DNA of 44,488 bases from positions 1 to 44,488 of the forward strand of contig CAMDHE010000025.1 of assembly GCA_945898095.1 (NCBI GenBank). Direction: 5' to 3'. The position numbers and the translations under genes were made by a program. This DNA comes from Roseateles toxinivorans (GTDB lineage: Bacteria > Pseudomonadota > Gammaproteobacteria > Burkholderiales > Burkholderiaceae_C). Below are positions 3,673-30,826 of this stretch, piece after piece. Below the pieces are notes generated by a model. It saw nothing but the letters and a program-made list of their open reading frames with translations, did no database searches and had not been told where the DNA came from. Numbering within the stretch: position 1 is the stretch's first letter; each line of letters begins with the position of its first letter.

Positions 3673-3675
3673 CTG

Positions 3676-5346: not shown

Positions 5347-5356
5347 GGAACTCGCG

Positions 5357-5569
5357 ATGCTGATCACCGACCCGAATCTCGAAGCCGCCGATGACTTTTA
5401 TGAAGCGCTGATCGACAGTCACCGCGAACTCGACAGCGCCAGCAGCCATCAACTCAATGCCAAGCTGGTGCTGCTGCTGGCCAACCATATCGGCCGGCAA
5501 TCGGTCCTCCAGCAGGCGCTGCAGGCAGCGCGCGCCAACACCCTTAAAACGATAGCTCAATCGGCATGA
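5357..5569 (+). CDS. DUF2783 family small protein
   Basis: A 70-residue acidic-to-neutral helical protein starting MLITDPNLEAADDFY, matching the DUF2783 family found next to homogentisate genes in beta- and alphaproteobacteria. It has no signal peptide, membrane segment or cysteines. AGGAA lies upstream of the ATG, and its TGA overlaps the hmgA start by 4 nt (ATGA), so hmgA translation is probably coupled to it. The biochemical role is unknown; conserved neighbourhood suggests an accessory to the FAD hydroxylase or to HmgA. Confidence 0.8.
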   Translation: MLITDPNLEAADDFYEALIDSHRELDSASSHQLNAKLVLLLANHIGRQSVLQQALQAARANTLKTIAQSA

Positions 5570-6861: not shown

Positions 6862-6863
6862 CA

Positions 6864-8177: not shown

Positions 8178-8981
8178 TCAGACGCTTGCGGGCAGCCGCC
8201 TTAACTCCTGTTCGATCGTGCTGACGGCTTCGCGCAGAAAAACCACGACTTCGTCAACGCGCTCTCCTTGCAAGCGCGAGGCCAGGGTGGACACGCTGAT
8301 GGCAGCAACCGGCAGGCCCTGGGCATCGCGGATACACATGCCGACCGACCTGACGCCGACGGTCTCAAGCACATCGGTCAGGGCATAACCGCGGCTCTGG
8401 GTTTCAGCAATTCGCCGCGCCAGTTCCGCCTCGGTATAACGGGCATATTGCTCGGCCACACGGCTGCGGTTGGACAGGCAGATGCGTTCGATTTCGTCCT
8501 TGGGCAGACCGCTCAGAATGGCGATATTTCCAGCGCCAACCCCCAAGGGCCTGCGCCGGCCCGGCTCCAGCACGAAGGCCTTGATCGGGAAAGGGCCTTC
8601 CTTGCGGTCGACGCAGACCCCGTCGAAACCGGAGCGAACGCTCAGGAAAACCGTGTCGCCGGTCTGCTCGGCCACCGCCAGCAAATGCGGCTGGCAAAGG
8701 TCGCGCAACTGAAACGGCGGGGCCATCGCCACCCCCATTTCATAAATCCCCATGCCGAGAAAATAACGCTTCGATTCGCGGTTCTGCACCACCAGGCGCT
8801 CGGCGATCAGCCCCTGCAACAGCCGATGCACGGTCGAGCGCTCGATCTGGGCGCTGCGGTAAAGGTCGACCAGCCGCATACCCATCCGGTTGTTCACCGC
8901 CAGCAGGCGCAACAGGATGGCTACGCGCCGCACCACCTGGGTGCCCAGGGCGACATCGGCATTGGCTGAAGCTGCTTCCAT
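8178..8981 (-). CDS. IclR-family transcriptional regulator
   Basis: A 267-residue regulator with the IclR layout: a winged helix-turn-helix at about residues 17-75 (including ERSTVHRLLQGLIAERLV) and a C-terminal effector domain with SVRSGFDGVCVDRKEG and the terminal VAAISVSTLASRL motif. IclR proteins control aromatic and organic acid catabolism and often activate a divergent operon. Here the gene is divergent from the PrpD/CoA-transferase operon at 9119 and convergent with fahA. I therefore infer that its main target is the 9119-17387 operon and probably itself. A duplicated CATTGATT sequence flanks the shared promoter region. Confidence 0.93.
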   Translation of the reverse strand: MEAASANADVALGTQVVRRVAILLRLLAVNNRMGMRLVDLYRSAQIERSTVHRLLQGLIAERLVVQNRESKRYFLGMGIYEMGVAMAPPFQLRDLCQPHLLAVAEQTGDTVFLSVRSGFDGVCVDRKEGPFPIKAFVLEPGRRRPLGVGAGNIAILSGLPKDEIERICLSNRSRVAEQYARYTEAELARRIAETQSRGYALTDVLETVGVRSVGMCIRDAQGLPVAAISVSTLASRLQGERVDEVVVFLREAVSTIEQELRRLPASV

Positions 8982-9118: not shown

Positions 9119-10528
9119 ATGACCGGATTGACCGAAGCCGTTGCGCGTTTCATCAGCGAGCGCAATTTCGCCGACCTGCCTGAAGGCGCGGTGGAAAAAG
9201 CCAAGAAGGTCATCGTCGATACCTTTGCCGTGATCCTGGCCGGGGCTGGCAGTGAAGTCGAAGAACCGCTGCTGCGCTATCTGGCGATGTCGGACGAATC
9301 CGGACAGTCGCCGATCCTCGGCACCAGCCGGCATGCAGCCGCCGAAACTGCCGCGCTGATCAATGGCAGCTTCGGCCATGCGCTGGACTTCGACGATGTC
9401 CTGTCGATGATGCCGGCCCACCCGAGCGCGATCATCGTTGCGGCGCTGATCGCTGACCTGGCCCATTACCCCTTGACCGGTCAGGCCTTCATCGAAGCCT
9501 ATGTGATCGGCGTGGAAGCCGGCGCGCGGATCGCTGAAGGCATCACCGTCGGCCATTATGGCCGCGGCTTTCACGGCACCGGCACCCTGGGCATTTTTTC
9601 TGCTCTCGCCGCCCTGGCCAAGGCCTATCGCCTCGACATCGCCACCACGCGGACCGCTTTCGGCATCGCCGCTTCAATGGCCAGCGGCTTGCGGCGCAAT
9701 TTCGGCACCATGACCAAGCCCTTGCACACCGGACTGGCCGCGCGCAATGCGCTGGCGGCGGTGCGGATGGCGATCTGCGGCCTCAGCGCAGCGCCCGATG
9801 TGCTCGAAGCCAAATCCGGCTTCTATGCGGCCTATGGGGTCGAGCGCTCCGACCCGGAAGTGGCCATCCGCAATCTCGGCAAACCCTGGGTCATCATGGA
9901 ACCCGGCATTGCGCTGAAAAAGTTCGCCTGCTGCTATGCCTCGCACAGAGCGATGGACGCGGTGCTGGTATTGCGCGAACAGCATGGTTTCAGCGCCGAT
10001 GACGTGCGGCGGCTGGAATGCCGGATGCCGCCTGGCGGCATGCTGGTGTTGACCTATCCAGAGCCGCTGACCGGGCTCGAAGGCAAGTTCAGCCTTCAAT
10101 ATCCGCTCGCCGCAGGCTTGCTCGATGGCGGCTACACGCTCTGGTCCTTCAGCGACGAAGCCGTCGCGCGACCGGCAATCCACGCCTTGCTCGAACGCAT
10201 CGATGCCTTCGAAGATGAATGCTGTCGCGACGACGACCCGCTCTTCGACACCCGCAGTTCGGGCGGGCGCGGCTTCGTCGAAGTCGATGTCGAGTTGAAC
10301 GACGGCAGAAAATTCGGCCTCCGGGTCGGCAAGTCGCCCGGCCACCCATCGCGCGAACTGACCTGGGACGACATCTCGGCCAAGTTCGACGACTGCGCAG
10401 CGATGGCCGGGATCAGCGATGCGCGCCAAGCCTTCACGGCGCTGCGCGAGCTCGAGCATTGCAGCGACCTGACCGACATCGTCCGCCTCTTTCACGGCCA
10501 GGCTGCGAGCCCGGCCCAGCCGGTCTGA
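9119..10528 (+). CDS. MmgE/PrpD family protein (paralog 1)
   Basis: A 469-residue MmgE/PrpD-fold protein, the family of 2-methylcitrate dehydratase and cis-aconitate decarboxylase, which add or remove water or CO2 on polycarboxylates. It has a well-formed signature HALDFDD...AHPSA in the first third, and NFGTMTKPLHTG in the middle with a Lys-Pro-Leu-His segment expected at the active site. The start at 9119 is preferred to 9074 because AGGAA precedes it and the family begins here. It is first in an operon divergent from iclR and its stop overlaps the next start (TGATG). The middle motif groups it with the paralog at 29407. Substrate unknown. Confidence 0.9.
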   Translation: MTGLTEAVARFISERNFADLPEGAVEKAKKVIVDTFAVILAGAGSEVEEPLLRYLAMSDESGQSPILGTSRHAAAETAALINGSFGHALDFDDVLSMMPAHPSAIIVAALIADLAHYPLTGQAFIEAYVIGVEAGARIAEGITVGHYGRGFHGTGTLGIFSALAALAKAYRLDIATTRTAFGIAASMASGLRRNFGTMTKPLHTGLAARNALAAVRMAICGLSAAPDVLEAKSGFYAAYGVERSDPEVAIRNLGKPWVIMEPGIALKKFACCYASHRAMDAVLVLREQHGFSADDVRRLECRMPPGGMLVLTYPEPLTGLEGKFSLQYPLAAGLLDGGYTLWSFSDEAVARPAIHALLERIDAFEDECCRDDDPLFDTRSSGGRGFVEVDVELNDGRKFGLRVGKSPGHPSRELTWDDISAKFDDCAAMAGISDARQAFTALRELEHCSDLTDIVRLFHGQAASPAQPV

Positions 10529-11778
10529 TGCCCTCAGCCATGGCCAACCCCGCCGCTGCCGCGCCGCGCGCATTGGAAGGTCTGAGGGTCATCGAACTGG
10601 CCCATCAGCGCGGCCAGTATTGCGGCAAGATGTACGCCGAACTGGGCGCCGAGGTGATCCTGGTCGAGCCGCCGCGCGGCGCTGCCACGCGCCATTGCTC
10701 GCCCCGCAGCGCCGGCGAAGGTCAGCCCAGCTTGTCGTTCTCCTACTTCAACACCAGCAAACACGGCATCACGCTGGATCTGCAGCAAAGCGCCGGGCAG
10801 GAATTGTTCCGCCGGCTGGTCGCCAGCGCCGACTTGCTGATCGAATGCGAACGGCCGGGCGAACTGGCCGCCATCGGTTGCGGCTATGCGGCGCTGGCCT
10901 TGCTGCGGCCCTCGCTGGTCGTCACCAGCATCACCGCCTTCGGACAGACCGGCCCATATGCGCAGTACGAAGGCGAAGATCTGATCGGGCTGGCCACTGG
11001 CGGTTTTCTTTATCTGGGCGGCTATCCGGATTCAGCGCCGATCGGCGCTTTCGGCGACCAGGCGATCTCGGGATCCAGCATGTTCGGCGCAGTGGCCTCG
11101 ATGCTGGCGCTGACTCAGGCCGAGACCAGCGGCCAGGGCGAGCATGTCGATGTGTCGATGCAGGAATGCATGGTGCTGGCGATGGAAAACGCGGTCCAGT
11201 TCTACGACCTCGAGGGCACGATCCGCAAGCGCTATGCCGGTCGCCAGCGTTTCGCCGGCACCGGCGTCTACGAATGCCTGGATGGCCATGTCTACATGAT
11301 GGCCGGCGGTATCGGTGCCAACCGGTTCTGGGGTTTGACCCTGCAATGGCTGATCGACGAAAAAGCGCCCGGCGTCGAGCGGCTCGGCGGCGATGAATGG
11401 CTGCAGACCGCCTACCTGGAGTCCGACCAGGCCAAGGACATCTTCATGGAAGTTTTCGGCAGCTGGGCCAGAACCAGAACCAAAGCCTATCTGTACCGCG
11501 AAGGACAGCGCCGCCATGTGCCGGCGGCTGCCATCAACACGACCGAAGACCTGGTCGCGAGCGCGCAATTGCAGGCTCGCGGTTTTTTCGTCGACAGCCT
11601 GCAGCCAGGTCTGCCCCGGCCGGCGGTGATGCCCGGCGCGCCCTATCAGTTGTCACTGACGCCCTGGGCCATGAGCAGCGCGGCGCCGACCCTGGGCCAG
11701 CACAATGATCAGGTCTATACCGGGCTGGGAATGAGCAAGGCCGAGCTACAGCTTCTGTCGCGCCAAGCGGTGATCTGA
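10528..11778 (+). CDS. Type III (CaiB/BaiF) CoA-transferase, subunit or paralog A
   Basis: A 416-residue family III CoA-transferase that moves CoA between carboxylic acids. It begins with the usual first strand (LEGLRVIELAHQ) and has EVILVEPPRG, HGITLDLQ and the Gly-Gln pattern SGQGEHVDVSMQE. The aspartate in FGDQAISGSS lies where the catalytic Asp of formyl-CoA transferase is expected. The start at 10528 overlaps the PrpD stop by one base (TGATG). The adjacent second CoA-transferase suggests a heteromeric enzyme, as in BbsEF, or two separate activations; this is inference. The far upstream in-frame start at 10219 would lie within the PrpD gene and is rejected. Confidence 0.9.
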   Translation: MPSAMANPAAAAPRALEGLRVIELAHQRGQYCGKMYAELGAEVILVEPPRGAATRHCSPRSAGEGQPSLSFSYFNTSKHGITLDLQQSAGQELFRRLVASADLLIECERPGELAAIGCGYAALALLRPSLVVTSITAFGQTGPYAQYEGEDLIGLATGGFLYLGGYPDSAPIGAFGDQAISGSSMFGAVASMLALTQAETSGQGEHVDVSMQECMVLAMENAVQFYDLEGTIRKRYAGRQRFAGTGVYECLDGHVYMMAGGIGANRFWGLTLQWLIDEKAPGVERLGGDEWLQTAYLESDQAKDIFMEVFGSWARTRTKAYLYREGQRRHVPAAAINTTEDLVASAQLQARGFFVDSLQPGLPRPAVMPGAPYQLSLTPWAMSSAAPTLGQHNDQVYTGLGMSKAELQLLSRQAVI

Positions 11779-12995
11779 TGAGCAAATTGCCACTTTCCGG
11801 AATCCGCGTCACCGACTTCACCTGGATCGGTGCGGGCTCCTACACGACCAAGATACTCGCCGATGCCGGGGCCGATGTGGTGAAGATCGAGAGCGCCGCC
11901 AGGGTCGATTCGCTGCGTCTGGCAGCTCCTTACAAGGATGGCATCAAGGGTTTGAACCGCAGCGGTTATTTTGCCGACCGCAACTCGAGCAAGCGCAGTC
12001 TGACCTTGAACATGAAGCATCCGCGCGCCCTCGAGCTGATTGCCAGGCTGATCCGCCAGAGCGATGTGATTGCCAACAATTTCACCCCCGGCGTGATGGA
12101 TCGCTTCGGTTTGAGTTACGAAGCCGTCCGGCAGATCAAGCCCGACATCATCTATCTGGCGATGTCGATGCAGGGCAGCACCGGCCCGGAAAAAGACTAC
12201 CTCGGCTATGGCGCCACGATGGCGGCGGTGACCGGCATCCAGCAACTGACCGGCCTGCCCGGGCGCGAGCCTGCGGGCACCGGGACCAACTATCCCGACC
12301 ATATTCCCAACCCCTGCCATGCCGCTTTCGCGATCCTGGCGGCCTTGCGTCATCGGCGCCGCAGCGGCCAGGGCCAGCGCATCGATATGGCGCAGACCGA
12401 GCCGACCGTCGCCTTGCTGGGCCCGGCCGTGCTGGACTTCAGCGTCAACGGCCATGTGCAGCAGGCCCGCGGCAACCAGCATCCCGATGCCGCGCCCTAT
12501 GGGGCTTACCGCTGCGCTGGCGAGGACCGCTGGATTGCCATCTGCGTGATGAATGACACCCAATGGCAGGGTCTGGGCAAGGTGCTGGGCGCACCGGCCT
12601 GGATGCAAGACGCCGCTTTGGCCAGCAATTACGGCCGGCTGGCGCAACGCGAGGCAATCGATCAGCAACTCAACCAGGCAACGCAAAACCTGGACCGCAA
12701 CCGGCTCAGCGCAGCTTTGCAAGCGCAGGGCGTGCCCGCCGGGCCGGTGAACGATGCCGCCGACGTGATCCAGGATCCCCAACTGGACCATCGCGGCCAT
12801 TGGCTGACGCTGGAACATCCTGAAATGGGCCCCTCGCTCTACAACGCCCAGCCCTTCCGTTTTTCGCGCAGCGCCGCCGGCGTGCCCAAGCCGGCACCCA
12901 TGCTCGGCCAGCACACCGAGGAAATCTGCCGTGAATTGCTGGGCCTGAGCAAAATTGAAATCGAACAGCTCGCCGGTGAAGGCGCGCTGACCTGA
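11778..12995 (+). CDS. Type III (CaiB/BaiF) CoA-transferase, subunit or paralog B
   Basis: A 405-residue family III CoA-transferase, overlapping the previous stop by one base. Visible family elements are LSGIRVTDFTWIGAGSYTTK at the N-terminus, ADVVKIES, the aspartate of NYPDHIPNPCHAAFA at the expected catalytic position, and GQGQRIDMAQTE. The C-terminus ends with APMLGQHTEEI, as usual. It differs clearly from its neighbour, which suggests an old heterodimer-type pairing rather than a recent duplication. Genes downstream (crotonase, thiolase, DUF35) suggest that the CoA ester formed enters a beta-oxidation-like sequence. Confidence 0.92.
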   Translation: MSKLPLSGIRVTDFTWIGAGSYTTKILADAGADVVKIESAARVDSLRLAAPYKDGIKGLNRSGYFADRNSSKRSLTLNMKHPRALELIARLIRQSDVIANNFTPGVMDRFGLSYEAVRQIKPDIIYLAMSMQGSTGPEKDYLGYGATMAAVTGIQQLTGLPGREPAGTGTNYPDHIPNPCHAAFAILAALRHRRRSGQGQRIDMAQTEPTVALLGPAVLDFSVNGHVQQARGNQHPDAAPYGAYRCAGEDRWIAICVMNDTQWQGLGKVLGAPAWMQDAALASNYGRLAQREAIDQQLNQATQNLDRNRLSAALQAQGVPAGPVNDAADVIQDPQLDHRGHWLTLEHPEMGPSLYNAQPFRFSRSAAGVPKPAPMLGQHTEEICRELLGLSKIEIEQLAGEGALT

Positions 12996-13011
12996 AGGCA
13001 GAAAGAAAGCT

Positions 13012-13791
13012 ATGGCCACCGTCGAAATCACACTCAAGGACCATGTTGCAACGGTCACGCTGAATCGCCCCGAAGCGATGAACTCAGTCGACCCGGAAAT
13101 GCGCGCGCTGCTGCACAGTTGCTGGGATCGCCTGCACGACGACGATGAAATCCGGGTGGTGATCGTGACCGGCGCGGGAACGCGGGCTTTTTGCACCGGT
13201 TCGGATTTGAAGAAGACCTTGCCCAGCCAGAACAGCGCCGCGCAACAGCAGTTCGGCAACCCGGCGGGCGCCTCGCTGATCGCCAATTTACGCACTGACA
13301 AGCCGATGATCGCGGCCATCAACGGCTTCGCCATGGGCGGCGGCATGGAGCTGGCCCTGGCCTGTGACATCCGCATTTGTTCCGAAAACGCCGAGTTCGC
13401 GCTGCCCGAAGTCAAGGTCGGCAGCATGCCTGGCGCAGGCGGCACAGTCAGGCTGCCACGCTTCATCGGCCGCTCGGATGCGATGCTGATGCTGCTGACA
13501 GGCAACCGCAGCAATGCCGCCGAAGCCTTGCGCATCGGCCTGGTCAGCAAAGTGCTGCCGCAAGCGCAACTGCTTGCCGAAGCCGAGGCGATCGCGCAGA
13601 CCATCGCGGCCAATGCACCGCTTTCGGTGCGGGCGGTCAAGCGCATGGTGCTCAAGGGCGAGGACATGCCCCTGGAGCAAGCCATCGAGACCGAACGCCT
13701 CGCCTTCGGTCTGCTCTATTCCAGCGAAGACCGGATCGAGGGCCGCCTTGCCTTCGCCGAGAAACGCAAGCCGCAATTCAAGGGGCGCTGA
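13012..13791 (+). CDS. Enoyl-CoA hydratase/isomerase (crotonase family)
   Basis: A 259-residue crotonase, normal length. Both catalytic glutamates of hydratases are present: one in AMGGGMELALACD and one in FALPEVKVGSMPGAGGT. The oxyanion-hole region reads AFCTGSDLK. Hydration of a 2-enoyl-CoA is therefore the likely reaction. It sits 16 nt after the second CoA-transferase and before the thiolase, so it would act on the CoA ester formed by those enzymes. No acyl-CoA dehydrogenase is in the operon, implying that the substrate is already unsaturated, perhaps through the PrpD-type dehydratase. Confidence 0.93.
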   Translation: MATVEITLKDHVATVTLNRPEAMNSVDPEMRALLHSCWDRLHDDDEIRVVIVTGAGTRAFCTGSDLKKTLPSQNSAAQQQFGNPAGASLIANLRTDKPMIAAINGFAMGGGMELALACDIRICSENAEFALPEVKVGSMPGAGGTVRLPRFIGRSDAMLMLLTGNRSNAAEALRIGLVSKVLPQAQLLAEAEAIAQTIAANAPLSVRAVKRMVLKGEDMPLEQAIETERLAFGLLYSSEDRIEGRLAFAEKRKPQFKGR

Positions 13792-13827
13792 CCGCGCCGC
13801 TCGCCTCCACCTGCTGACAGACACAAC

Positions 13828-14973
13828 ATGCACCCATTACGCGACAAAACCGCCATTGCCGGCGTCGGCGCCAGCCGCCAGGGCAAGTTCCCCGACGCCA
13901 CACCGATCTCGTTGGCCGTCGAAGCTTTCAAAGCGGCCCTCGATGACTGCGGTTTGAAGAAGGACCAGATCGACGGCATCCTGACCATGCCGGGCAACAC
14001 CTCGCCCGAAGGGTCGATGAATTTCCTGCGCTTCGGTGAAACCGTGGGCATCAACCCGCGCTATACCGGCAGCAAAAGCATGGGAGGCGGAACTGCCGGT
14101 GCCTTGCTGCACGAAGCGGCCATGGCCGTCAATGCCGGCTTCGCCAACTATGTCGCCTGCGTCTTTGGCGACACTGCGGCCACCGGCGGCACACGCTTCA
14201 GCCGGGCCTCGGGTTGGGGTGACTCCTGGGGTATCTGGGGCTTTATGGCGGCCTGTGCCAACAGCGCGATCACCGCATCACGGCATATGGCGCTGTATGG
14301 CACGACCAGCCGCCAGCTGGGTGAAATCGCGGTGGCCTGCCGCCGCCATGCGTCGATGAACCCCAACGCCATCATGCGCAAGCCGATCACGCTGGAGGAT
14401 CATCAGAATTCACGCTTCATCGTCGAGCCGCTGCATCTGCTCGATTGCTGCCTGATCTCGGACGGTGCCGTCTGCGTCATCGTCACCACCAAGGAGCGGG
14501 CGCGCGACCTGAAAGCCAATCTGGTGACGATCACGGGAATGGGCCAGGCCTACACGACCGAGAACATGGAGCGCGAAGACTGGTGGTATGTACCGCACCA
14601 GAAACTGGCCGTCGGCGATGCCTACGCGATGGCCGGCATGGGGCCTGCCGACATCGACGTCTGCCAGCTCTACGACAACTTCACCAGCAGCGTGCTGCTC
14701 TGGTTCGAACATGCGGGGTTTTGCAAGGTCGGCGAATCGGGGCCCTTCGTCGAAGGCGGTCGCATCCAGCTGGGCGGCGAACTACCGATCAACACGGCCG
14801 GCGGCAATCTCTCCGAATCCTATATGGAGGGCTGGCTGCATATCGTCGAAGGCGTGCGCCAGCTGCGCGGCGACTGCGGTATCCGCCAAGTCGAGAATGC
14901 ACAAACCTGTCTGGTCACCGGACGCGGATTGGCGCTGAACTGCTCCAACGCGACGATTCTGAGCAAAGGATGA
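13828..14973 (+). CDS. Thiolase-family protein (SCP2/BbsB-like)
   Basis: A 381-residue thiolase-fold protein. The N-terminus (TAIAGVGASRQGKFP) and C-terminal GGNLSESYMEGWLHIVEG place it with SCP2-type thiolases that pair with a DUF35 partner, as in benzoylsuccinyl-CoA thiolase BbsAB. At the position of the usual N-terminal nucleophilic Cys the sequence is glycine-rich (SMGGGTAG, about 84-91), so chemistry may rely on other residues or differ from classic thiolysis. The next gene, 7 nt downstream, is the expected DUF35 partner. The proposed role is cleavage or formation of a 3-oxoacyl-CoA at the end of the operon's pathway; substrate unknown. Confidence 0.85.
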   Translation: MHPLRDKTAIAGVGASRQGKFPDATPISLAVEAFKAALDDCGLKKDQIDGILTMPGNTSPEGSMNFLRFGETVGINPRYTGSKSMGGGTAGALLHEAAMAVNAGFANYVACVFGDTAATGGTRFSRASGWGDSWGIWGFMAACANSAITASRHMALYGTTSRQLGEIAVACRRHASMNPNAIMRKPITLEDHQNSRFIVEPLHLLDCCLISDGAVCVIVTTKERARDLKANLVTITGMGQAYTTENMEREDWWYVPHQKLAVGDAYAMAGMGPADIDVCQLYDNFTSSVLLWFEHAGFCKVGESGPFVEGGRIQLGGELPINTAGGNLSESYMEGWLHIVEGVRQLRGDCGIRQVENAQTCLVTGRGLALNCSNATILSKG

Positions 14974-14980
14974 TCAAGCC

Positions 14981-15433
14981 ATGAGCGAATATCTGAAACC
15001 GCTGCCAACGCTTTGTGCCGAAAACCGGCCGTTCTGGGATGGCTGCCGGGAACACAAGCTGCGCATGCAGCAATGCGGCGGCTGCAAGCATGTCCGCTTC
15101 CCCATCAGCCCGGTCTGCCCCAGATGCTTGAGCGATGCATTCGAATGGCTGGATCTGTCGGGGCGCGGCGAAGTGTTCTCTTACATCGTCTTCCATCAGG
15201 TCTACAACAAGGCTTTCGCTGCCGATGCGCCCTACAACGTGGCCCTGGTGCAGCTCGAAGAAGGCCCGCGCATGTACAGCAATGTCGTCGGCGTGCCCAA
15301 TGACGCGGTCAAGGTCGGCGACAAGCTGGAAGTGGTTTTCGACCCGGTCACCGATGCCATCACCATTCCACGTTTTCGCCTGCGCCAGCCACCGCTGGGG
15401 GGCACCATCAAGCAAGGACAAGCATGCGCGTAG
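14981..15433 (+). CDS. DUF35 Zn-ribbon/OB-fold protein (BbsA-like thiolase partner)
   Basis: A 150-residue protein with an N-terminal helix (ENRPFWDGC), a rubredoxin-like zinc ribbon with CGGC and CPRC separated by about 11 residues (residues 33-50), then an OB-fold domain. Such proteins bind next to SCP2-type thiolases and are needed for activity or acyl-CoA binding. The order thiolase then DUF35 with 7 nt between them supports a complex. Its end overlaps the next gene by 10 nt in a different frame, indicating tight co-expression. Confidence 0.9.
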   Translation: MSEYLKPLPTLCAENRPFWDGCREHKLRMQQCGGCKHVRFPISPVCPRCLSDAFEWLDLSGRGEVFSYIVFHQVYNKAFAADAPYNVALVQLEEGPRMYSNVVGVPNDAVKVGDKLEVVFDPVTDAITIPRFRLRQPPLGGTIKQGQACA

Positions 15434-16395
15434 CCATCCTCGACGACTATGCGCATCTGGCGCTGAAACTGGCCGACTGGAGTGCATTCGCAGGGCGCTG
15501 CGAACTGCAGGTGTTCGACCGCCATTTGTCCGAGGATGAAGCGGTCGAACAATTGCAGGATTTCGACGTCATCTGCCTGTTGCGGGAGCGGATGGCGATA
15601 CCGCGTTCATTGCTGTTGCGTCTGCCCCGGCTGAAGCTGATCTGCATCACCGGATCCAAGCACCGGACGCTGGACCTGGCCACCGCCATCGAACGCGGCA
15701 TCACCGTGTCGTTTACCGCGCGCAGCCAGAATGGCCAATTCGCGACGGCTGAGCTGGCCTGGGGAATGATGCTGTCGCTGGCGCGCCATATCCCCGCCGA
15801 GGTGGCCAGGATGAAGATCGGCGGCTGGCAAGACAGCGTCGGCTATGCGCTGGCCGGACGCACGCTCGGTTTGCTGGGCCTGGGCCGGCTGGGCAGCCGG
15901 ATGGTACCGATTGCCCGCGCCTTCGACATGGATGTCATCGCCTGGAGCCAGAACCTCAGCGCTGATGCTGCCGCAGCGCTGGGGGCGACCCGGGTCGAAA
16001 AAGACGAGCTGTTCAGCCGCAGCGATTTCCTCAGCCTGCATCTGGTGCTGAGCGAGCGCTCGCGCGGCATCGTCGGTGCACGCGAGCTCGGCTTGATGAA
16101 GCCCAGTGCCTACCTGATCAACACCTCGCGCGGCCCGCTGATCGACCACGACGCTTTGCTCGAGGCCTTGCGCCAGCGCCGCATCGCCGGCGCCGCGCTC
16201 GACACCTTCGAAGTGGAACCGCTGCCTGACGACGAACCGCTGCGGCAACTGGAAAACGCGCTGCTGACGCCCCATATCGGTTACATGGCCGAGGAGCTGC
16301 TCACCGACTTCTACCGGGACACGGTCGAGAACCTGCAGGCCTGGCTCGACGGCAAACCGATTCGCACCCTGAGCCTGCCTGCCAGCAAACCATGA
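15424..16395 (+). CDS. D-2-hydroxyacid dehydrogenase family protein
   Basis: A 323-residue NAD(P)-dependent D-isomer-specific 2-hydroxyacid dehydrogenase. The Rossmann motif is LGLLGLGRLGSR near 147-158, and the catalytic triad is Arg236 (NTSRGPLID), Glu265 (FEVEPLP) and His284 (TPHIGY). It interconverts 2-oxo and D-2-hydroxy acids. Its presence in a CoA-thioester operon is unusual, since a 3-hydroxyacyl-CoA dehydrogenase would be expected after the hydratase. It could supply a 2-hydroxy acid substrate for the PrpD-like enzyme or dispose of a 2-oxo acid product. The start overlaps the DUF35 gene by 10 nt. Confidence 0.9.
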   Translation: MRVAILDDYAHLALKLADWSAFAGRCELQVFDRHLSEDEAVEQLQDFDVICLLRERMAIPRSLLLRLPRLKLICITGSKHRTLDLATAIERGITVSFTARSQNGQFATAELAWGMMLSLARHIPAEVARMKIGGWQDSVGYALAGRTLGLLGLGRLGSRMVPIARAFDMDVIAWSQNLSADAAAALGATRVEKDELFSRSDFLSLHLVLSERSRGIVGARELGLMKPSAYLINTSRGPLIDHDALLEALRQRRIAGAALDTFEVEPLPDDEPLRQLENALLTPHIGYMAEELLTDFYRDTVENLQAWLDGKPIRTLSLPASKP

Positions 16396-16406
16396 AGGAG
16401 AGAAAA

Positions 16407-17387
16407 ATGCACCGACGATTATTTCTGGGCACCATTCCCGCCGCCGCCCTGCTGGGCGCAGGCTTGCCGCACAGCGCCAGCGGGCGTGAGGAGTTCCCGA
16501 GCCGGACTTTGCGCCTGATCGTGCCGCTGGCACCAGGCGGCGGCACCGATGTCGTATCGCGACTGGTGGCGAATGAATTCGGCCGGATCCTGGGCCAGTC
16601 GATGGTGGTCGAGAACCAGAGCGGCGCCAGCGGCACGATCGGCATGACGACCGTCATCCGCGCCCTGCCGGATGGCTATACCTTGCTGACCGGAACGCCC
16701 TCGCTTTCGATCAACCCGTCGCTGCGCAGCGATATGAAATTCGACCCGCTGAAGGATCTGCAGCCGGTCTCCTTGCTGACCCGCGTACCCTATGTGCTGG
16801 TGGCTTCGACTGCGTCCAAGTTCAAATCGGTGCAGGAATTGCTGACGGCGGCCAAGGCGGCTCCGGGCACGATCACCATCGGTTCACCCGGCATAGGCAG
16901 CGGCGGCCATCTGGCGGCCGAGTTGTTTCAACTGATGGCCGGGATCAAACTGGTGCACATCCCCTACAAGGGAACCAGCCCGGCGATGATCGACCTGCGC
17001 GGCGGGCGCATCGACTTGCTCTTCGGCACCACACCGGCAGTGGCCCAATTCGTCAAGTCCGGGCTGCTGGTGGGGCTGGGGATGACCAGCATGGCGCGTG
17101 CCGCGATTCTTCCCGAGATGCCGACGATCAATGAAAGTGGCGTACCGGGCTTCGAGACCTATTCCTGGTATGGCATCTGGGCGCCGGCAAAGACGCCACG
17201 GGCCATCGTCGATCGCCTCAACGAGACCATCCGGACCGCCTTGCGGCAACCGAACGTGCTGGCTGCCATCAAGGCCGATGGCGGCGAGCCGGAACCGGCT
17301 TCACCGGAAGACACCGGCCAATTCCTGGCCAATGAAATCGCCAAATGGCGCAAGGTGATTGTTAGCGCCGGGATCAAACCGGAGTAA
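16407..17387 (+). CDS. Bug-type (tripartite tricarboxylate transporter family) substrate-binding protein 1
   Basis: A 326-residue periplasmic solute-binding protein of the TctC/Bug family, which binds carboxylates. It has an N-terminal signal (RRLFLGTIPAAALLGAG), the first strand FPSRTLRLIVPLAPGGGTDV, the ligand-loop pattern PYKGTSPAMIDLRGGRID, and the C-terminal helix ending KWRKVIVSAGIKPE. The start at 16407 has AAGGAGA seven bases upstream and is preferred to an ATG at 16392 that overlaps the previous stop. No TctA or TctB membrane genes are in the window, so it is an orphan that may use a shared transporter or act in sensing. It is the last gene of the operon and converges on the CoA-transferase at 17399. 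Confidence 0.92.
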   Translation: MHRRLFLGTIPAAALLGAGLPHSASGREEFPSRTLRLIVPLAPGGGTDVVSRLVANEFGRILGQSMVVENQSGASGTIGMTTVIRALPDGYTLLTGTPSLSINPSLRSDMKFDPLKDLQPVSLLTRVPYVLVASTASKFKSVQELLTAAKAAPGTITIGSPGIGSGGHLAAELFQLMAGIKLVHIPYKGTSPAMIDLRGGRIDLLFGTTPAVAQFVKSGLLVGLGMTSMARAAILPEMPTINESGVPGFETYSWYGIWAPAKTPRAIVDRLNETIRTALRQPNVLAAIKADGGEPEPASPEDTGQFLANEIAKWRKVIVSAGIKPE

Positions 17388-17398
17388 TCAACACCATT

Positions 17399-18778
17399 TC
17401 AGCGCCAGGCCGGCGGGTGGCTGCCCAAAGGCACGGCAGGAAGTTCCCAGCGCGGGGTGGTTTCCGACATCTTCACGATCGGCCCCAGATGGGTCAGGCG
17501 CCCGGCCGGCGAATCGGAGTCGATCATGCAGTTGCGCAGCTGATCGGTCGAGATTTCCCCCGGGCAGGCGTTGAATTGTTCGGCCGTCATCAGGCCATGC
17601 TCGCGGATCCAATGGCCGGTGCCGGCAAGCGAGATCCTGACCAGCCAGCTACCGCCTTCGCGAGCGCGTCGACCCAGGGCCACCATGGCGCCATAAGCCA
17701 TCAAATATCCGGCGACATAGTCCTGCGCCGAGACCGGCAAAAAGGCCGGCATCTGCCCCTCGGGCCGCCAGGCCATGCCATTGGCGGATTGCACGATCGT
17801 GTCGTAGCCGCGCCGCAATGACCAGGGCCCGCTATGGCCCCAGGCGCTCAGCGTCACATAGACCAGCCCGGGCCGCAACTGCGCCAGCGCCTCGGGCGAA
17901 AACCCGCGCAACTCCAGGCTTTGCGGCCTGTAGGCTTGCGCAAAGACATCCGCCTCGCAGATCAAGGACTTGAGCTGCTGCGCCTGCGCCGGCTCGCGCA
18001 GATCGAGAAAAGTCGAGCGCTTGCCCAGGCCGGTATCGAGGTCAAACATGCCGGAATCCGGCAGCCCCTCGCGCGACACCCGCAGCACTTGCGCGCCATG
18101 CTCGGCCAGCGTCTTGCCGCAGGTCGGGCCGGCCAGCACCCGGGTCAGGTCGAGCGCCCGGATCCCCGACAAGGGTCGATCGCCTGCGGGCATAGGCTCG
18201 GGAGGCGCCTCGCCGATCTTGATGATCTCGAGCAGCGGCAAGGCGGCCACGGCGGCGGCCTGCGGCGTCGCCAGCCATTGCGCTTCGTTGCGGACCAGGG
18301 CGCAGCAGCCGCCGGCGTCGAAGATCGCCTGCTCGAGGGCTTCGCCGTGCCACAAGGCCACCGCTGCGGCAACCGCTGCCCGGTCGGGACCGACGCCGAG
18401 CACCGCGAGATTGCGGTCGCGCAGATTGAAGAAATTGCAATGCAGGTGGATCCAGCGCTGGTCTTGCAACTGGTAGAAACCGGTGACTTCATCGCGCGGC
18501 CTGGGTGGCTGGCGCCCGTCGATCTTCAGGTAATGGTTGCTGCGCAAGGCTGCGGCCGCCGCGATCAGGTCGACTTGCAGGGCTTGCTGACGTCCGGTTT
18601 TCAAGGCCCAGAGATCGGCTGCGGCGAGGCCGGCAGCGGCGATCGAAGCCGCTCCCGGTGCGGCCAGCCGGTAGGGGCTGCGGAACAAGGGATCAGCACC
18701 CGAAAACTGGACTGAATCGGCGGCGGCGGCCGGCAATCCGCCCAGCGCCAGCAGCCCGCGCAATGAAGTGGATGGCAT
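17399..18778 (-). CDS. CoA-transferase with rearranged (permuted) domain order
   Basis: A 459-residue CaiB/BaiF-related protein in an unusual order. Residues 1-200 resemble the middle and large domain of a type III CoA-transferase (TGRQQALQVDLIAAAAALRS, then FYQLQDQRWIHLHC). The canonical N-terminal start appears only at about 203 (LSGIRALDLTRVLAGPTCG). It continues through ADVFAQAYRP and a catalytic-position Asp at about 353 (SAQDYVAGYL) to a short C-terminus ending PLGSHPPAWR. This looks like a circular permutation or fused half-copies. The start at 18778 overlaps the upstream PrpD stop (TGATG). It is last in the minus-strand operon with the ABC importer, PrpF and PrpD; activity as a CoA-transferase is inferred. 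Confidence 0.82.
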   Translation of the reverse strand: MPSTSLRGLLALGGLPAAAADSVQFSGADPLFRSPYRLAAPGAASIAAAGLAAADLWALKTGRQQALQVDLIAAAAALRSNHYLKIDGRQPPRPRDEVTGFYQLQDQRWIHLHCNFFNLRDRNLAVLGVGPDRAAVAAAVALWHGEALEQAIFDAGGCCALVRNEAQWLATPQAAAVAALPLLEIIKIGEAPPEPMPAGDRPLSGIRALDLTRVLAGPTCGKTLAEHGAQVLRVSREGLPDSGMFDLDTGLGKRSTFLDLREPAQAQQLKSLICEADVFAQAYRPQSLELRGFSPEALAQLRPGLVYVTLSAWGHSGPWSLRRGYDTIVQSANGMAWRPEGQMPAFLPVSAQDYVAGYLMAYGAMVALGRRAREGGSWLVRISLAGTGHWIREHGLMTAEQFNACPGEISTDQLRNCMIDSDSPAGRLTHLGPIVKMSETTPRWELPAVPLGSHPPAWR

Positions 18779-20187
18779 CAGTTGACTCCGGTCTGGCGGG
18801 CTGGAAGGCAAACGCATTGCGCCAGCAAGGGGTCGAGACTGGTTTGATGCTCGAGTTGGTCGATGAAGGCGATCACGCCATCAGCCCGCTGCTGGCCCAG
18901 GGCAGGAACTGCCAGCGACAAGAACTTGGCTTTGACCGCGGCATCGGTCATCGGCCGGTCACGATCGCCCAGCGGGATTTCCTCGGTCGCGGTCAAGCTG
19001 CTGCCATCATCAAAATCGATCTCCACCGCACCCGGCCTGCCGGCAGGAAAACGTGCTTCGAAGTCGCTGTCGGCAATCGCCTCGACCAGCAAGGTCAAGC
19101 GCATCACGTCGGCGTCGAGGAAGCGTTGTCCATGGAACTGGGCTTCGCCGAGGCAGCCATCAGCCAGGGCCATGGCCACGCAGGAAGGCAGGCTGTGGTC
19201 AGCGGTCTCGCGATTGAGCGGCCGGAATTTATCCGCATCAGCAGCCCGCGCAATGGTTTCGGGCCTGACTCGGGCGCGGATCCTGACGATGCGGTCGAGG
19301 CGGTCCGCAGCTTGCTGGTGCAAGCTGGCCGCTGCCGCCACCGGCGCCTGCAAGGCATATTGCACCGGGTACTGTTTCAGGCTGACCTGCTCCAGCCGGT
19401 AAGCCTGATGATCGAGCGCGAACGCTGCCGGCGACTCGGTACGGCCGGCAGTCTTCTCGAACAGCCATTCATAGGCATTCAGCGGGCCGCTGAAGCCGGC
19501 GCCCGCGAGCCGGGCACTGCTGATGCTTTCGGCAGCGCTGAGCGGATAGCCGATCGCCTTGGCCATGCTCAACTTGCCTTTGGACAGCACGCCCAAGGTC
19601 AGATGGCGGGTGCCGCCGAGCACAGTGCCCTGGGCCATTTCGATGGCGCTTTGGCCCCAGGCCTTGCCGGCGACGAAGGGCACGACAAAGCCCGCAGCGC
19701 TGGCATGGTGAAAGCCTCGGTCCTGGAACGAGAAGGCGTCGCAGAGCCGGATCTGGACTTCGTATCCGGCCACCACCGCCTCGATGAAAGTCCGTCCGTT
19801 GCCGCCCGCTTCCTGCACGCAAGCCAATGCGACCGGAATGTTTTCGGCTGGGTGGCAGACATCACGCGACCAGTAGACATCCATGAAATCAAGGTAGCGG
19901 ACCAAGGCGCCGTTGATCGCTGCCGCACCTTCAGCCGTACTGCGGCGCCCGCTGCCGATCAAGCTGGCCCCGGCCTGGTCGGCGGCGATAGTCGGCGCCA
20001 GCGGCTGCAACAAGCGCACCGGCAAGGCATCCAGGGCACCCAAAGCGCAACCGAGCGTGTCGAGCAACAAACGCTTGACGGCGGCTACCGTTGAAGCCGG
20101 CAGGCCCTCATAGCGGATCTGGGCGACGAACTCGCCAATGCGCAAGGCCAGCGGCGGCTGCTTGGGCAGAACCTGCGGCGAATTCAT
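18778..20187 (-). CDS. MmgE/PrpD family protein (paralog 2, closest to true PrpD signature)
   Basis: A 469-residue MmgE/PrpD protein. Its signature reads YLDFMDVYWSRDVCHPAENIP, closest of the five paralogs here to the HPSDN pattern of 2-methylcitrate dehydratase. The middle motif is GVLSKGKLSMAKAIGYPLSA instead of the KPLH or VKRLH versions of the other copies. It overlaps PrpF upstream by 4 nt (ATGA) and the CoA-transferase downstream by one base. PrpF-PrpD pairs act together in methylcitrate or aconitate metabolism, so dehydration or hydration of a tricarboxylate or substituted citrate is the best guess. Confidence 0.9.
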   Translation of the reverse strand: MNSPQVLPKQPPLALRIGEFVAQIRYEGLPASTVAAVKRLLLDTLGCALGALDALPVRLLQPLAPTIAADQAGASLIGSGRRSTAEGAAAINGALVRYLDFMDVYWSRDVCHPAENIPVALACVQEAGGNGRTFIEAVVAGYEVQIRLCDAFSFQDRGFHHASAAGFVVPFVAGKAWGQSAIEMAQGTVLGGTRHLTLGVLSKGKLSMAKAIGYPLSAAESISSARLAGAGFSGPLNAYEWLFEKTAGRTESPAAFALDHQAYRLEQVSLKQYPVQYALQAPVAAAASLHQQAADRLDRIVRIRARVRPETIARAADADKFRPLNRETADHSLPSCVAMALADGCLGEAQFHGQRFLDADVMRLTLLVEAIADSDFEARFPAGRPGAVEIDFDDGSSLTATEEIPLGDRDRPMTDAAVKAKFLSLAVPALGQQRADGVIAFIDQLEHQTSLDPLLAQCVCLPARQTGVN

Positions 20188-21314
20188 TGGCCGGCCAGGA
20201 TGCGGCTATGGATATAGGCCTGGCCTTCAAGCAGACGACGCGCGGTGCGTGAATAGGACGCCTCGAGCAACTGGCCCTCGGCGTCAAGCCGCAGTTGCAC
20301 CGGAAACACCCCGGTCGGATGACCGATCCTGACGATGCCGCTGCTGATGTCGGCCGTGACCGCCTGGACGACGGTGCCCTGGATACTGGCCGCAGCCGCA
20401 GTGCAGACCGCGCCGGTCGAGGCGAAGGCCTTGTGAAGCTTGGGCGGCGGCCCGATGACGCGGCGCGCGGCAAAGCTCATCGCCTCTTTGGGCACGACCG
20501 CCTTGGTCAGGTAATTGACGTAATCGACTGACTCGGTCACCGCCACCGGCGTCGGCAAACGCGAGTCGGGACCGAGCCCGATGGCGATCGCCGCAGCCCG
20601 GCGCACGGCCCAGAAGCGCTGCAGGATTTCAGGCGTGAACTGATCCGGGCCTTCGGTGCCCAGGATGCCGATTTCATGGGCATGAAAGTAGCAGGTGGCT
20701 TTGGCCACGTCGACGATCGAGACGGTGACATGATGCCCCAGCTCGGGCACATACAAGGAGTCGCTGGGGTTGCCGGTTGGCAGGATTTTGCCGGTGGTAG
20801 CACCTGCGGTGCCCGAATAATCCATGCGGATTTCGGCCCCGGTACCGGGAACGCCGGCGATCGAATAGCTGCCTTCGACAGCCGGGCGACCATGGCGGAC
20901 CGGCACATAGGCAATCAGCATCTGCCGCGCGTTGGTATTGAAGATGCGGACGACTGTTTCGGGTTCCTGCGGCAACACGAAGCCGGCCTCGATCGCGTAG
21001 ACGCCGACCGCTGCTGACAGATTGCCGCAATTGCCGCCGAGCGCGACATAGGCTTCTTCGATGCCGACCTGGCCGAAGGTGTAGGTCACATCGGCGCCAT
21101 GGGCACGGCCGGGCCCGATGATGCAGACCTTGCTGGTGAGCGGATCGGCGCCGGCCAGGCCATCGATCTGGCGCGGATCGGGGCTGCCCATGACGGCCAG
21201 GATGACCTTTTCGCGCAGCTTGGCATCTTGCGGCAGGTCGACCTCATTGAAGAACACGCCCTTGCTGGTGCCGCCGCGCATGATGACGACCTTGATCGGG
21301 GTCAGTTCAGCCAT
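20184..21314 (-). CDS. PrpF-family isomerase (2-methylaconitate isomerase / oxalomesaconate tautomerase-like)
   Basis: A 376-residue PrpF (DUF453, diaminopimelate-epimerase fold) protein. The family start KVVIMRGGTSKGVFF is at the N-terminus, and the paired domains contain GGNCGNLSAAVGVYAI, with its Cys near residue 100, and FASTGAVCTAAAASIQG later, giving the two halves of the active site. The fold shifts double bonds in unsaturated di- and tricarboxylates: PrpF isomerises 2-methylaconitate and LigU/GalD relatives isomerise 4-oxalomesaconate. The start at 21314 has AGGAG upstream and is preferred to 21371. It links the ABC importer genes to PrpD in one operon. Confidence 0.9.
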   Translation of the reverse strand: MAELTPIKVVIMRGGTSKGVFFNEVDLPQDAKLREKVILAVMGSPDPRQIDGLAGADPLTSKVCIIGPGRAHGADVTYTFGQVGIEEAYVALGGNCGNLSAAVGVYAIEAGFVLPQEPETVVRIFNTNARQMLIAYVPVRHGRPAVEGSYSIAGVPGTGAEIRMDYSGTAGATTGKILPTGNPSDSLYVPELGHHVTVSIVDVAKATCYFHAHEIGILGTEGPDQFTPEILQRFWAVRRAAAIAIGLGPDSRLPTPVAVTESVDYVNYLTKAVVPKEAMSFAARRVIGPPPKLHKAFASTGAVCTAAAASIQGTVVQAVTADISSGIVRIGHPTGVFPVQLRLDAEGQLLEASYSRTARRLLEGQAYIHSRILAGQ

Positions 21315-21346
21315 TTTTATCTCCTGTGAATATTGCCTGCTGCGAC

Positions 21347-22408
21347 TCAGGCCCGCAGGCTGAGCAGCCATTCCGGCGCCAAGAACAAGGCCAGTTGATC
21401 GCCGATTTCGGCATCTGCTTCGGCCGTGACAACTTGCAAGGTCAAACCGGCCGCCTCGACGTCATAGACGCTGGTGCTGCCGAGAAAAACCTTGTCGACG
21501 ATGCGGCCGGGCAAGATATTGCTGCCGCTGGCACCAGCCCCCAGCAGCTTGATCTTCTCGGGCCGGATACCGATCAGCTGGCCATCACTGGCACAGCCGC
21601 TGACTTGCAGCAGTTGCCCGGACGGCAAGCGCAGCATCTTGTCGGCGACGAACTCGCCGCTGAAAAAATTTGCAGACCCGAGAAAATCCATGGCAAAGCG
21701 GTTCGCCGGCCGGTCATAGACTTCGCGCGGCGATCCCGACTGCACCAGCAGGCCGTTTTGCATCAAGCAGATCCTGTCCGCCAGCACCAGGGCCTCGCTC
21801 TGGTCATGGGTAACGAAGATCGCCGTGACGCCAAGCCGGTTGATCAGTTTGCGCAACTCAAAGCGCATTTCCTCGCGCAGCTTCAGGTCCAGATTGCTCA
21901 AGGGCTCATCAAACAGGATCACTTCAGCCTCCACCACCAGGCTGCGCGCCAGCGCGACCCGTTGCTGCTGGCCACCGCTCAGGGTTGAAGGGAAGCGTTC
22001 GGCCATGCCGCTCAAGCCGACGGTGGCAAGAATCGCTTCGACCCGCTGCGCCGCCTCAGCCTTGCCGATCTTCTTGATCTGCAGGCCGAAGGCAATGTTC
22101 TGCGCCACCGTCATATGCGGCCACAAGGCGTAGGACTGGAATACCAGACCGATCTTGCGCTGTTCAGGGGCTTCATTGACCGGTGGTTCGGCCGAGTAGA
22201 CGACCCGGTCGCCAATGCTGATGCTGCCGCTGCTCGGTTGCTCCAGGCCGGCGATACAGCGCAGCAGCGTGGTCTTGCCGCAACCGCTCGGGCCCAGCAG
22301 GGCGATGGTTTCGCCGCGCTCGACTGCCAGATTTATGCCACCGACGGCCAAGGAACTGCCGAACTGCTTGGTCAGCCCCTGCACAATCACATGCGCCTTG
22401 CCTACCAT
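21347..22408 (-). CDS. ABC transporter ATP-binding protein (FbpC/PotA class)
   Basis: A 353-residue ATPase of an importer. All motifs are intact: Walker A GPSGCGKTT, Q-loop FQSYALWP, signature LSGGQQQR, Walker B VILFDEPLSNLD and the switch His in THDQSEA, followed by a C-terminal TOBE-like domain (GIRPEKIKLL). It overlaps the permease gene by 7 nt. The class imports ferric iron, polyamines, phosphonates or small organic ions; neighbouring PrpF, PrpD and CoA-transferase genes make a carboxylate the likelier cargo. Confidence 0.93.
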   Translation of the reverse strand: MVGKAHVIVQGLTKQFGSSLAVGGINLAVERGETIALLGPSGCGKTTLLRCIAGLEQPSSGSISIGDRVVYSAEPPVNEAPEQRKIGLVFQSYALWPHMTVAQNIAFGLQIKKIGKAEAAQRVEAILATVGLSGMAERFPSTLSGGQQQRVALARSLVVEAEVILFDEPLSNLDLKLREEMRFELRKLINRLGVTAIFVTHDQSEALVLADRICLMQNGLLVQSGSPREVYDRPANRFAMDFLGSANFFSGEFVADKMLRLPSGQLLQVSGCASDGQLIGIRPEKIKLLGAGASGSNILPGRIVDKVFLGSTSVYDVEAAGLTLQVVTAEADAEIGDQLALFLAPEWLLSLRA

Positions 22409-30816: not shown

Positions 30817-30826
30817 GGAATTGACA

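Follow-up and report, generated by a model that had tools for sequence, protein, structure and literature searches.

The operon at positions 9119–17387 (forward strand) of a Roseateles toxinivorans contig may well encode the degradation of a dicarboxylic acid, probably a branched one, by way of CoA esters and a lyase; the acid would be a 2-substituted succinate or of the itaconate type. We favor this reading with moderate confidence. The contig (CAMDHE010000025.1, our C25) was analyzed in its entirety, 44,488 nucleotides, and is called the window here. Protein families, residues, and gene linkage were read from the DNA; from these we infer every reaction and the substrate class. In the predicted route, a periplasmic Bug receptor would bind the acid, the MmgE/PrpD-family protein PrpD1 would epimerize the free acid to the usable stereoisomer, and a BbsEF-like pair of CoA-transferases would move CoA onto it, presumably from succinyl-CoA. 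A crotonase would then hydrate the α,β-double bond, and a thiolase-fold protein paired with a DUF35 protein would split the 3-hydroxyacyl-CoA in a retro-aldol reaction, with Tyr282 as the base and Tyr332 as the acid. Cleavage would give an aldehyde or a 2-oxo acid together with an acyl-CoA, and the D-2-hydroxyacid dehydrogenase of the operon suggests a 2-oxo acid product in the window's subclade. The double bond would either be present in the substrate already or come from an unlinked acyl-CoA dehydrogenase.

Thirty-nine frames were called in the window, and 30 of its proteins were scanned with Pfam. The operon consists of eight open genes on the same strand without internal stops, which overlap by at most 10 bases or are separated by gaps of at most 36 bases. 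This tight spacing and the absence of internal stops make a single transcript likely, in keeping with a first-pass annotation of this DNA, which had described an operon here.

The thiolase-fold protein and its DUF35 partner

The lyase step is assigned to the thiolase-fold protein, a predicted retro-aldolase (13828..14973, +), and to its DUF35/ChsH2-type zinc-ribbon OB-fold partner (14981..15433, +; OB_ChsH2_C, 75.2 bits). The first-pass annotation had called this pair BbsAB-like, a description that the scores do not bear out. Against the NCBIfam models of BbsB and BbsA, the two proteins reached 113 bits of a 750-bit cut-off and 43.7 of 250, respectively. By sequence, the solved chains nearest to the thiolase-fold protein were 4u4e, an uncharacterized Sphaerobacter 'thiolase' (238 bits), and Ltp2 (6ok1, 220 bits), followed by Sal (9myr, 152 bits), a Pyrococcus thiolase (7yvy, 139 bits), and BbsB (107 bits). 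The DUF35 protein, which carries a four-Cys zinc motif (C-x2-C-x10-C-x2-C) at residue 32, likewise matched ChsH2 (6ok1 chain B, 83.6 bits) and the Shy domain (9myr chain B, 79.2 bits) better than BbsA (30 bits). A predicted structure of the thiolase-fold protein built with 39 sequences (mean pLDDT 88.1, pTM 0.91; loop 122–139 poorly predicted) gave the same picture in Foldseek. The chains 4u4e, Ltp2 (6ok1), and Sal (9myr) ranked first and the Pyrococcus thiolase next, and BbsB first appeared at rank 14; Ltp2 and Sal precede any thiolase of known activity.

The active-site positions point the same way. We take Cys85, His281 (in HDAF), and His331 (in GHP) of BbsB to be thiolase catalytic residues (7pxp chain numbering, counted in the alignment). 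When a profile built from 59 relatives was aligned to BbsB, Gly87, Tyr282, and Tyr332 of the window protein fell on these three positions, and the two tyrosines align with Tyr294 and Tyr344 of Ltp2. According to PMC12329534, Tyr294 is the base and Tyr344 the acid in Ltp2, and Sal has Gly at the Cys position and is hence incapable of thiolysis. Gly87, Tyr282, and Asn284 were invariant in all 39 clade loci described below. The alignments of 59 and 39 rows (A2 and A3) were chosen from 101 rows, with L109 excluded because of an in-frame stop. In a quick tree of 89 of these rows, which left out 12 that were short, redundant, or interrupted by stops, the clade forms one side of a fully supported branch (36 rows, SH-aLRT 100). 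BbsAB-type thiolysis was rejected as a function for this pair because the scores lie far below the cut-offs and the Cys and both His are replaced. A search for BbsB at E ≤ 1e-150 in 399 genomes of the order returned no match and was equally silent in the control genomes, so it shows no absence.

The closest characterized relatives of the pair are Ltp2-ChsH2 and Sal-Shy, which raises the question of whether the operon encodes a genuine Ltp2 or Sal aldolase that shortens the side chain of steroids or bile acids. Another contig of the same genome does encode an Ltp2-type protein above the family cut-off. The window protein itself scored 305.5 bits of a 469-bit cut-off against PRK07855 ('lipid-transfer protein'), which we take, from motifs, to be the Ltp2-type model, and it has Asn284 where Ltp2 has the His of YDHF and Sal has Cys304 in YDCY; membership in either group was rejected on these grounds. 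In addition, the hydratase is a crotonase and not of the MaoC type known from steroid operons, the acid would be activated by CoA-transferases, and dicarboxylate-type genes lie around the operon. A steroid role for this operon is very improbable. The Ltp2-type protein of the other contig (G000:C9, L044:4331-5506) reached 683.6 bits against the same 469-bit cut-off and has the motifs YDHF and EAYIHG; from it, the genome may be capable of steroid degradation as well.

CoA-transferases, crotonase, and PrpD1

The substrate class is suggested by the genes upstream of the lyase. Two class III CoA-transferase subunits are encoded in tandem: subunit a (10528..11778, +; CoA_transf_3, 254.8 bits), whose frame from 10219 begins too early and whose ATG at 10528 shares bases with the stop codon of PrpD1, and subunit b (11778..12995, +; CoA_transf_3, 381.6 bits). 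When compared with solved structures only, they pair one-to-one with the subunits of benzylsuccinate CoA-transferase (9fn0): subunit a matched chain A at 277 bits and its next relative at 134, and subunit b matched chain B at 366 bits and its next at 214. We regard this BbsEF resemblance, which the first-pass annotation had recognized, as real at the level of sequence, and it points to a 2-substituted succinate as the substrate. Both subunits keep a D-bearing motif (VDVSMQE in a, IDMAQTE in b), whose Asp we take to be the acyl-enzyme site. The crotonase-family enoyl-CoA hydratase (13012..13791, +; ECH_1, 239.1 bits) has 3-hydroxypropionyl-CoA dehydratase as its best solved match (199 bits). 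Both of its Glu-bearing motifs were located, as had been claimed earlier; the two Glu are presumably the catalytic residues needed for hydration.

The operon opens with PrpD1 (9119..10528, +; MmgE_PrpD_N, 179.7 bits). Identity as 2-methylcitrate dehydratase was rejected for this protein, which scored 24.4 bits of 575 and 24.1 of 950 against the two equivalog models. Among solved structures, iminodisuccinate epimerase (2hp0) matched best at 248 bits and B. subtilis 'IRG1' came next at 235, with the true cis-aconitate decarboxylases at 157 bits or less. PrpD1 carries the His and Tyr of two-base epimerases (His99 and Tyr145 in iminodisuccinate epimerase); the Tyr is also found in B. subtilis 'IRG1', and mouse CAD has Ile in that column. 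Because the Tyr is present, cis-aconitate decarboxylase activity seems less likely for PrpD1. According to PMC12290011, MmgE/PrpD epimerases use His and Tyr, one base is proposed for cis-aconitate decarboxylase, and all known MmgE/PrpD substrates have a four-carbon 1,4-dicarboxylate in common; the itaconate cluster of Cupriavidus and Pseudomonas contains an MmgE/PrpD protein that was shown there to be an (S)-(R)-methylsuccinate isomerase. Across 43 aligned MmgE/PrpD rows, both His and Tyr were present in all six rows of the PrpD1 clade and in all seven of the clade spanned by L064 and L075. His replaces the Tyr in three upstream copies (L069, L073, and L074), and Gln does so in PrpD2, the second MmgE/PrpD protein of the window. 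PrpD1 may accordingly epimerize the acid instead of making a double bond. The window holds five MmgE/PrpD genes altogether (9119–10528, 18778–20187, 27021–28388, 29368–30816, and 33358–34758), which belong to different clades, and 12 MmgE/PrpD matches were found in the genome.

The first-pass annotation had assigned the double bond to PrpD1, which would dehydrate a hydroxy-diacid before CoA transfer, hydration, and BbsAB-type thiolysis. Dehydratases do occur in the PrpD1 family, the representatives used as queries revealed no acyl-CoA dehydrogenase in the window, and a PrpF isomerase lies next door with PrpD2, which has no epimerase Tyr; unsaturated free acids may occur. However, the thiolase catalytic residues are absent, a two-base epimerase pair is present, and the match to 2-methylcitrate dehydratase is about 24 bits of the 575 expected. 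We consider this sequence of steps improbable. It had also been proposed as an undescribed route: literature searches, which did not reach most subscription papers, found no description of this gene module. The PrpD double-bond step looks less likely than epimerization. With an aldolase, the missing 3-hydroxyacyl-CoA dehydrogenase needs no detour through PrpD.

The last two genes of the operon encode the D-2-hydroxyacid dehydrogenase (15424..16395, +; 2-Hacid_dh_C, 188.3 bits) and the TctC/Bug periplasmic substrate-binding receptor (16392..17387, +; TctC, 247.6 bits). The motifs GLGRLG, NTSRG, DTFEVEPL, and TPHIG were found in the dehydrogenase and presumably have their usual catalytic roles. 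A dehydrogenase of this kind would fit a 2-oxo acid product, and one special case of the lyase route that we propose would yield one. In it, the operon would be a convergent copy of the itaconate/methylsuccinate pathway acting on the same C5 acids, with PrpD1 as methylsuccinate isomerase and with CoA transfer, hydration to citramalyl-CoA, and aldol-type cleavage to pyruvate and acetyl-CoA. The order of reaction types and the MmgE/PrpD partner agree with what PMC12290011 describes, and sister loci carry an acyl-CoA dehydrogenase next to the module. Against this, the CoA-transferase pair is closest to benzylsuccinate CoA-transferase among solved chains, and pyruvate needs no dedicated dehydrogenase. 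We hold the C5 version to be unlikely, if less so than the dehydration scheme above.

Related loci and exchanged thiolase-fold pairs

A scan of genome contigs gave 67 loci, of which 38 (L047–L084, 53–100% identity) were analyzed together with a Variovorax plasmid locus, 39 in all. These loci are partly dependent, since L047 and L048 hardly differ from the window and several genomes contribute two. The outside rows comprise L085–L111; L112 belongs to the clade but is a fragment, L113 is a marginal hit, and motif counts outside the clade refer to 60 rows without L112. Partners were counted within 8 kb at fixed identity and score thresholds, and many contigs are cut short. On this basis, CoA-transferase a was found at 29 of the 39 loci, b at 32, the crotonase at 32, and DUF35 at 36. 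Any MmgE/PrpD gene was present at 22, an acyl-CoA dehydrogenase at 11, an aldehyde dehydrogenase at 3, and a relative of the D-2-hydroxyacid dehydrogenase (at least 55% identity) at 7; a PrpF relative lay within 10.5 kb at 10. Twenty-eight loci extend at least 5 kb upstream and 2 kb downstream ('long' loci); among them, the core of CoA-transferase pair, crotonase, thiolase-fold protein, and DUF35 protein was complete in 20, of which 15 had an MmgE/PrpD gene and 7 an acyl-CoA dehydrogenase within 8 kb.

The full window-type operon (PrpD1, CoA-transferases, crotonase, thiolase-fold protein, DUF35 protein, and D-2-hydroxyacid dehydrogenase) recurs in four other records. In the window, an IclR-family regulator gene (8178..8981, −; Pfam IclR_C 73 bits, HTH_IclR 30.4) diverges from the operon, and IclR relatives lie near several sister operons. 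Bordetella sp. BOR01 has the regulator in place and one extra PrpD; in a Comamonadaceae metagenome-assembled genome (MAG) and in Paracidovorax cattleyae the regulator is further away; the contig of a Ramlibacter MAG is too short to include it. Clade members come mostly from Pseudomonadota; the titles of the remaining records name Geodermatophilus, Pseudarthrobacter, Mycolicibacterium, and Chloroflexi. Some of these non-Pseudomonadota records are MAGs in which binning errors are possible, and the Pseudarthrobacter and Mycolicibacterium loci have no CoA-transferase pair at the thresholds used. The first-pass annotation had suggested a search for the same gene order in other genomes. The gene set does recur in other genera and phyla and is more than a chance assembly.

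Some sister operons differ in their accessory genes. The acyl-CoA dehydrogenases present in several of them fit saturated substrates there. At L059 and L064, the neighboring aldehyde dehydrogenases scored 740 and 700 bits, above the 646-bit cut-off of the succinate-semialdehyde dehydrogenase subfamily; these fit release of a free aldehyde, weakly, as such genes are near just 3 of the 39 loci. A Variovorax-type subclade (L039, L069, L073, L074, L076, L078, L081, and L082) has a MaoC-like gene at 8 of 8 loci, a fused double CoA-transferase of about 850 amino acids where the contig reaches far enough, and Phe instead of Tyr332 in 7 of the 8.

Replacement of the thiolase-fold gene in Alcaligenaceae bears on the type of cleavage. 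Candidimonas nitroreducens (L099) has an operon with PrpD1 (72% identity), both CoA-transferases (63 and 78%), crotonase (77%), D-2-hydroxyacid dehydrogenase (68%), and Bug receptor (64%), with neither a thiolase-fold nor a DUF35 gene separating crotonase from dehydrogenase. Instead, a distant thiolase-fold/DUF35 pair (39 and 30%) adjoins the operon on the opposite strand. A similarly distant pair occurs in Bordetella petrii BT1 and at three Achromobacter loci, together with CoA-transferases and crotonase at 51–65% and an acyl-CoA dehydrogenase. The five exchanged thiolase-fold proteins (L099, L094, L095, L096, and L098) form a clade of their own, 37–39% identical to the window protein. They carry the motifs YDSF and SESYMQG with both tyrosines kept, and their nucleophile segment has a gap, Gln at the aligned column, and no Cys. 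That both tyrosines outlast replacement of the gene argues for aldol chemistry over thiolysis, and it is suggestive of an operon that would need the former.

These data also address the dehydrogenases, which the first-pass annotation had reported as missing. Representatives of acyl-CoA dehydrogenase, aldehyde dehydrogenase, MaoC, 3-hydroxyisobutyrate dehydrogenase, and SDR used as queries found no relatives in the window, and no such dehydrogenase domain occurred among the 30 proteins scanned with Pfam. The observation thus holds for the window, although an acyl-CoA dehydrogenase does lie beside 11 of the 39 related loci. In the Bbs pathway, as outlined in PMC10818641, BbsCD performs the 3-hydroxyacyl-CoA dehydrogenase step before BbsAB thiolysis. 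With a retro-aldolase, the 3-hydroxyacyl-CoA formed by the crotonase would be cleaved as such; no dehydrogenase of this kind would be needed, and its absence is then expected. The double bond could possibly come with an unsaturated substrate, from an unlinked dehydrogenase, or from a PrpD/PrpF step.

Normal β-oxidation with a thiolase would require both dehydrogenases from elsewhere in the genome, and candidates exist: 11 matches to 3HCDH_N (10 over the cut-off) and 5 to acyl-CoA dehydrogenase at E ≤ 1e-40, all on other contigs. Yet the nucleophile position is Gly at every one of the 39 clade loci, and the exchanged proteins of the five Alcaligenaceae loci keep both tyrosines with no Cys in the segment. 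Such a pathway is improbable here, marginally more so than the PrpD1 dehydration scheme. An acyl-CoA dehydrogenase match in the genome (G000:C3:40628-41758) contains one in-frame TAG.

Taken beyond the window, the loci could represent a widespread and so far undescribed module in which a YDNF/Tyr thiolase-fold aldolase replaces the 3-hydroxyacyl-CoA dehydrogenase and thiolase of benzylsuccinate-type β-oxidation. The module would convert 2-(hydroxyalkyl)succinyl-CoA or 2-hydroxy-2-substituted succinyl-CoA to a free carbonyl compound and succinyl-CoA or acetyl-CoA; the range of thiolase-fold retro-aldolases would thereby widen from steroids to small dicarboxylic acids. To this broader proposal we give roughly an even chance.

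Several observations weigh against the retro-aldolase route. The thiolase-fold protein is below the cut-off of every NCBIfam model listed for it, that of Ltp2 included, and literature searches found no known activity for any protein of its clade. Its motif is YDNF, as opposed to YDHF in Ltp2, with Asn284 where the known aldolases have His or Cys. At position 332, Tyr occurs in 30 of the 39 clade loci, Phe in 7, and His in 2. Because of the YDNF motif and these nine exceptions, the catalytic acid of the clade may differ from that of Ltp2. Outside the clade, the 60 relatives have Tyr282 in 60, Gly87 in 53, Tyr332 in 20, and Asn284 in 6, so these residues mark a wider, putatively aldolase-like branch; the same counts temper the argument from the exchanged genes. 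At the thresholds used, among the 28 long loci, four have no crotonase, three no CoA-transferase pair, two no DUF35 gene, and eight no MmgE/PrpD gene within 8 kb.

The assignments of substrate and PrpD1 are similarly exposed. The proposed substrate class draws on distant similarity to BbsEF and to iminodisuccinate epimerase. Of the 43 MmgE/PrpD rows, 27 have the epimerase Tyr and all 43 the His, which makes the pair a weak and unspecific test, and the grouping of the module's PrpD clades is supported only at 83/90. For both of these reasons, the epimerase role of PrpD1 is weakly indicated. In addition, methylsuccinate isomerase is specific for methylsuccinate, as stated in PMC12290011.

Neighboring genes and comparison with known systems

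Three convergent genes downstream of the operon may be associated with it. The first encodes a CoA-transferase III-like protein (17399..18817, −) whose first 215 residues match profile positions 157–310 (19.4 bits, below the cut-off of 23.3) and whose last 258 match positions 1–218, so that its domain order looks permuted; relatives (56–65%) lie near the module in L052, L055, L057, and L072. It is followed by PrpD2 (18778..20187, −) and by the PrpF-family isomerase (20184..21371, −; PrpF, 326.8 bits), which is below the equivalog cut-offs for 4-oxalomesaconate tautomerase (298 of 440 bits) and PrpF (215 of 440.6). Farther away, a TcuA tricarballylate dehydrogenase (30746–32323, +; 539.5 bits, cut-off 369) adjoins the MmgE/PrpD gene PrpD4, in which the His/Tyr pair is present, and Bug receptors. 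Directly upstream of the operon, the interval 2713–8174 encodes a metallo-hydrolase-fold protein, an FAD monooxygenase, a fumarylacetoacetase (506 bits, cut-off 375), and a putative homogentisate dioxygenase-like protein; it reads as a homogentisate-type pathway.

Among relatives of the thiolase-fold protein, a close one carries the label 'thiolase family protein' and more distant ones 'acetyl-CoA acetyltransferase'. Pathway reconstructions led by such labels would seek a dehydrogenase that may be unneeded. If our reading is correct, aldolases of the thiolase superfamily act on more than steroids: their branch would serve small diacids in Pseudomonadota, and probably also in Actinomycetota and Chloroflexota. 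It would also offer a predicted role for one clade of the MmgE/PrpD family, which is large and mostly uncharacterized.

Of the characterized systems, Ltp2-ChsH2 (6ok1) shares the thiolase fold without a nucleophilic Cys, the paired active-site tyrosines, and a DUF35 protein with a four-Cys zinc motif. The window protein is set apart from it by YDNF in place of YDHF, by 36% identity in the Foldseek alignment and a score below the family cut-off, and by a context of crotonase instead of MaoC hydratase and of activation by CoA-transferases. The bile-acid aldolase Sal-Shy (9myr) is likewise a retro-aldolase of the thiolase superfamily with a DUF35 domain and Gly at the Cys position. According to PMC12329534, it uses Tyr302/Cys304, has Gln in place of the second Tyr, and coordinates zinc with a Cys3His1 site, whereas the operon's proteins have Tyr282/Asn284, Tyr332, and four Cys.

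At the level of the pathway, the benzylsuccinate Bbs system is similar in its CoA-transferase pair, crotonase-type hydratase, and thiolase-fold and DUF35 proteins (steps as given in PMC10818641). It differs in that no BbsG- or BbsCD-type dehydrogenase was found here, cleavage is predicted to be aldolytic, and an MmgE/PrpD protein is added. For that protein, iminodisuccinate epimerase (2hp0) is the best solved match and shares the His/Tyr pair, with the caveat that B. subtilis 'IRG1' follows closely and has the Tyr too. Finally, the itaconate/methylsuccinate cluster of Cupriavidus and Pseudomonas, a pathway from 2025, combines a CoA-transferase, an MmgE/PrpD isomerase, a hydratase, and a C-C lyase, and includes an acyl-CoA dehydrogenase such as accompanies 11 of the 39 loci (PMC12290011). 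The present operon has a crotonase (ECH_1) as hydratase, a thiolase-fold lyase, and a BbsEF-like CoA-transferase pair, and in these it may differ from the Ict, Ich, and Ccl enzymes of that cluster.

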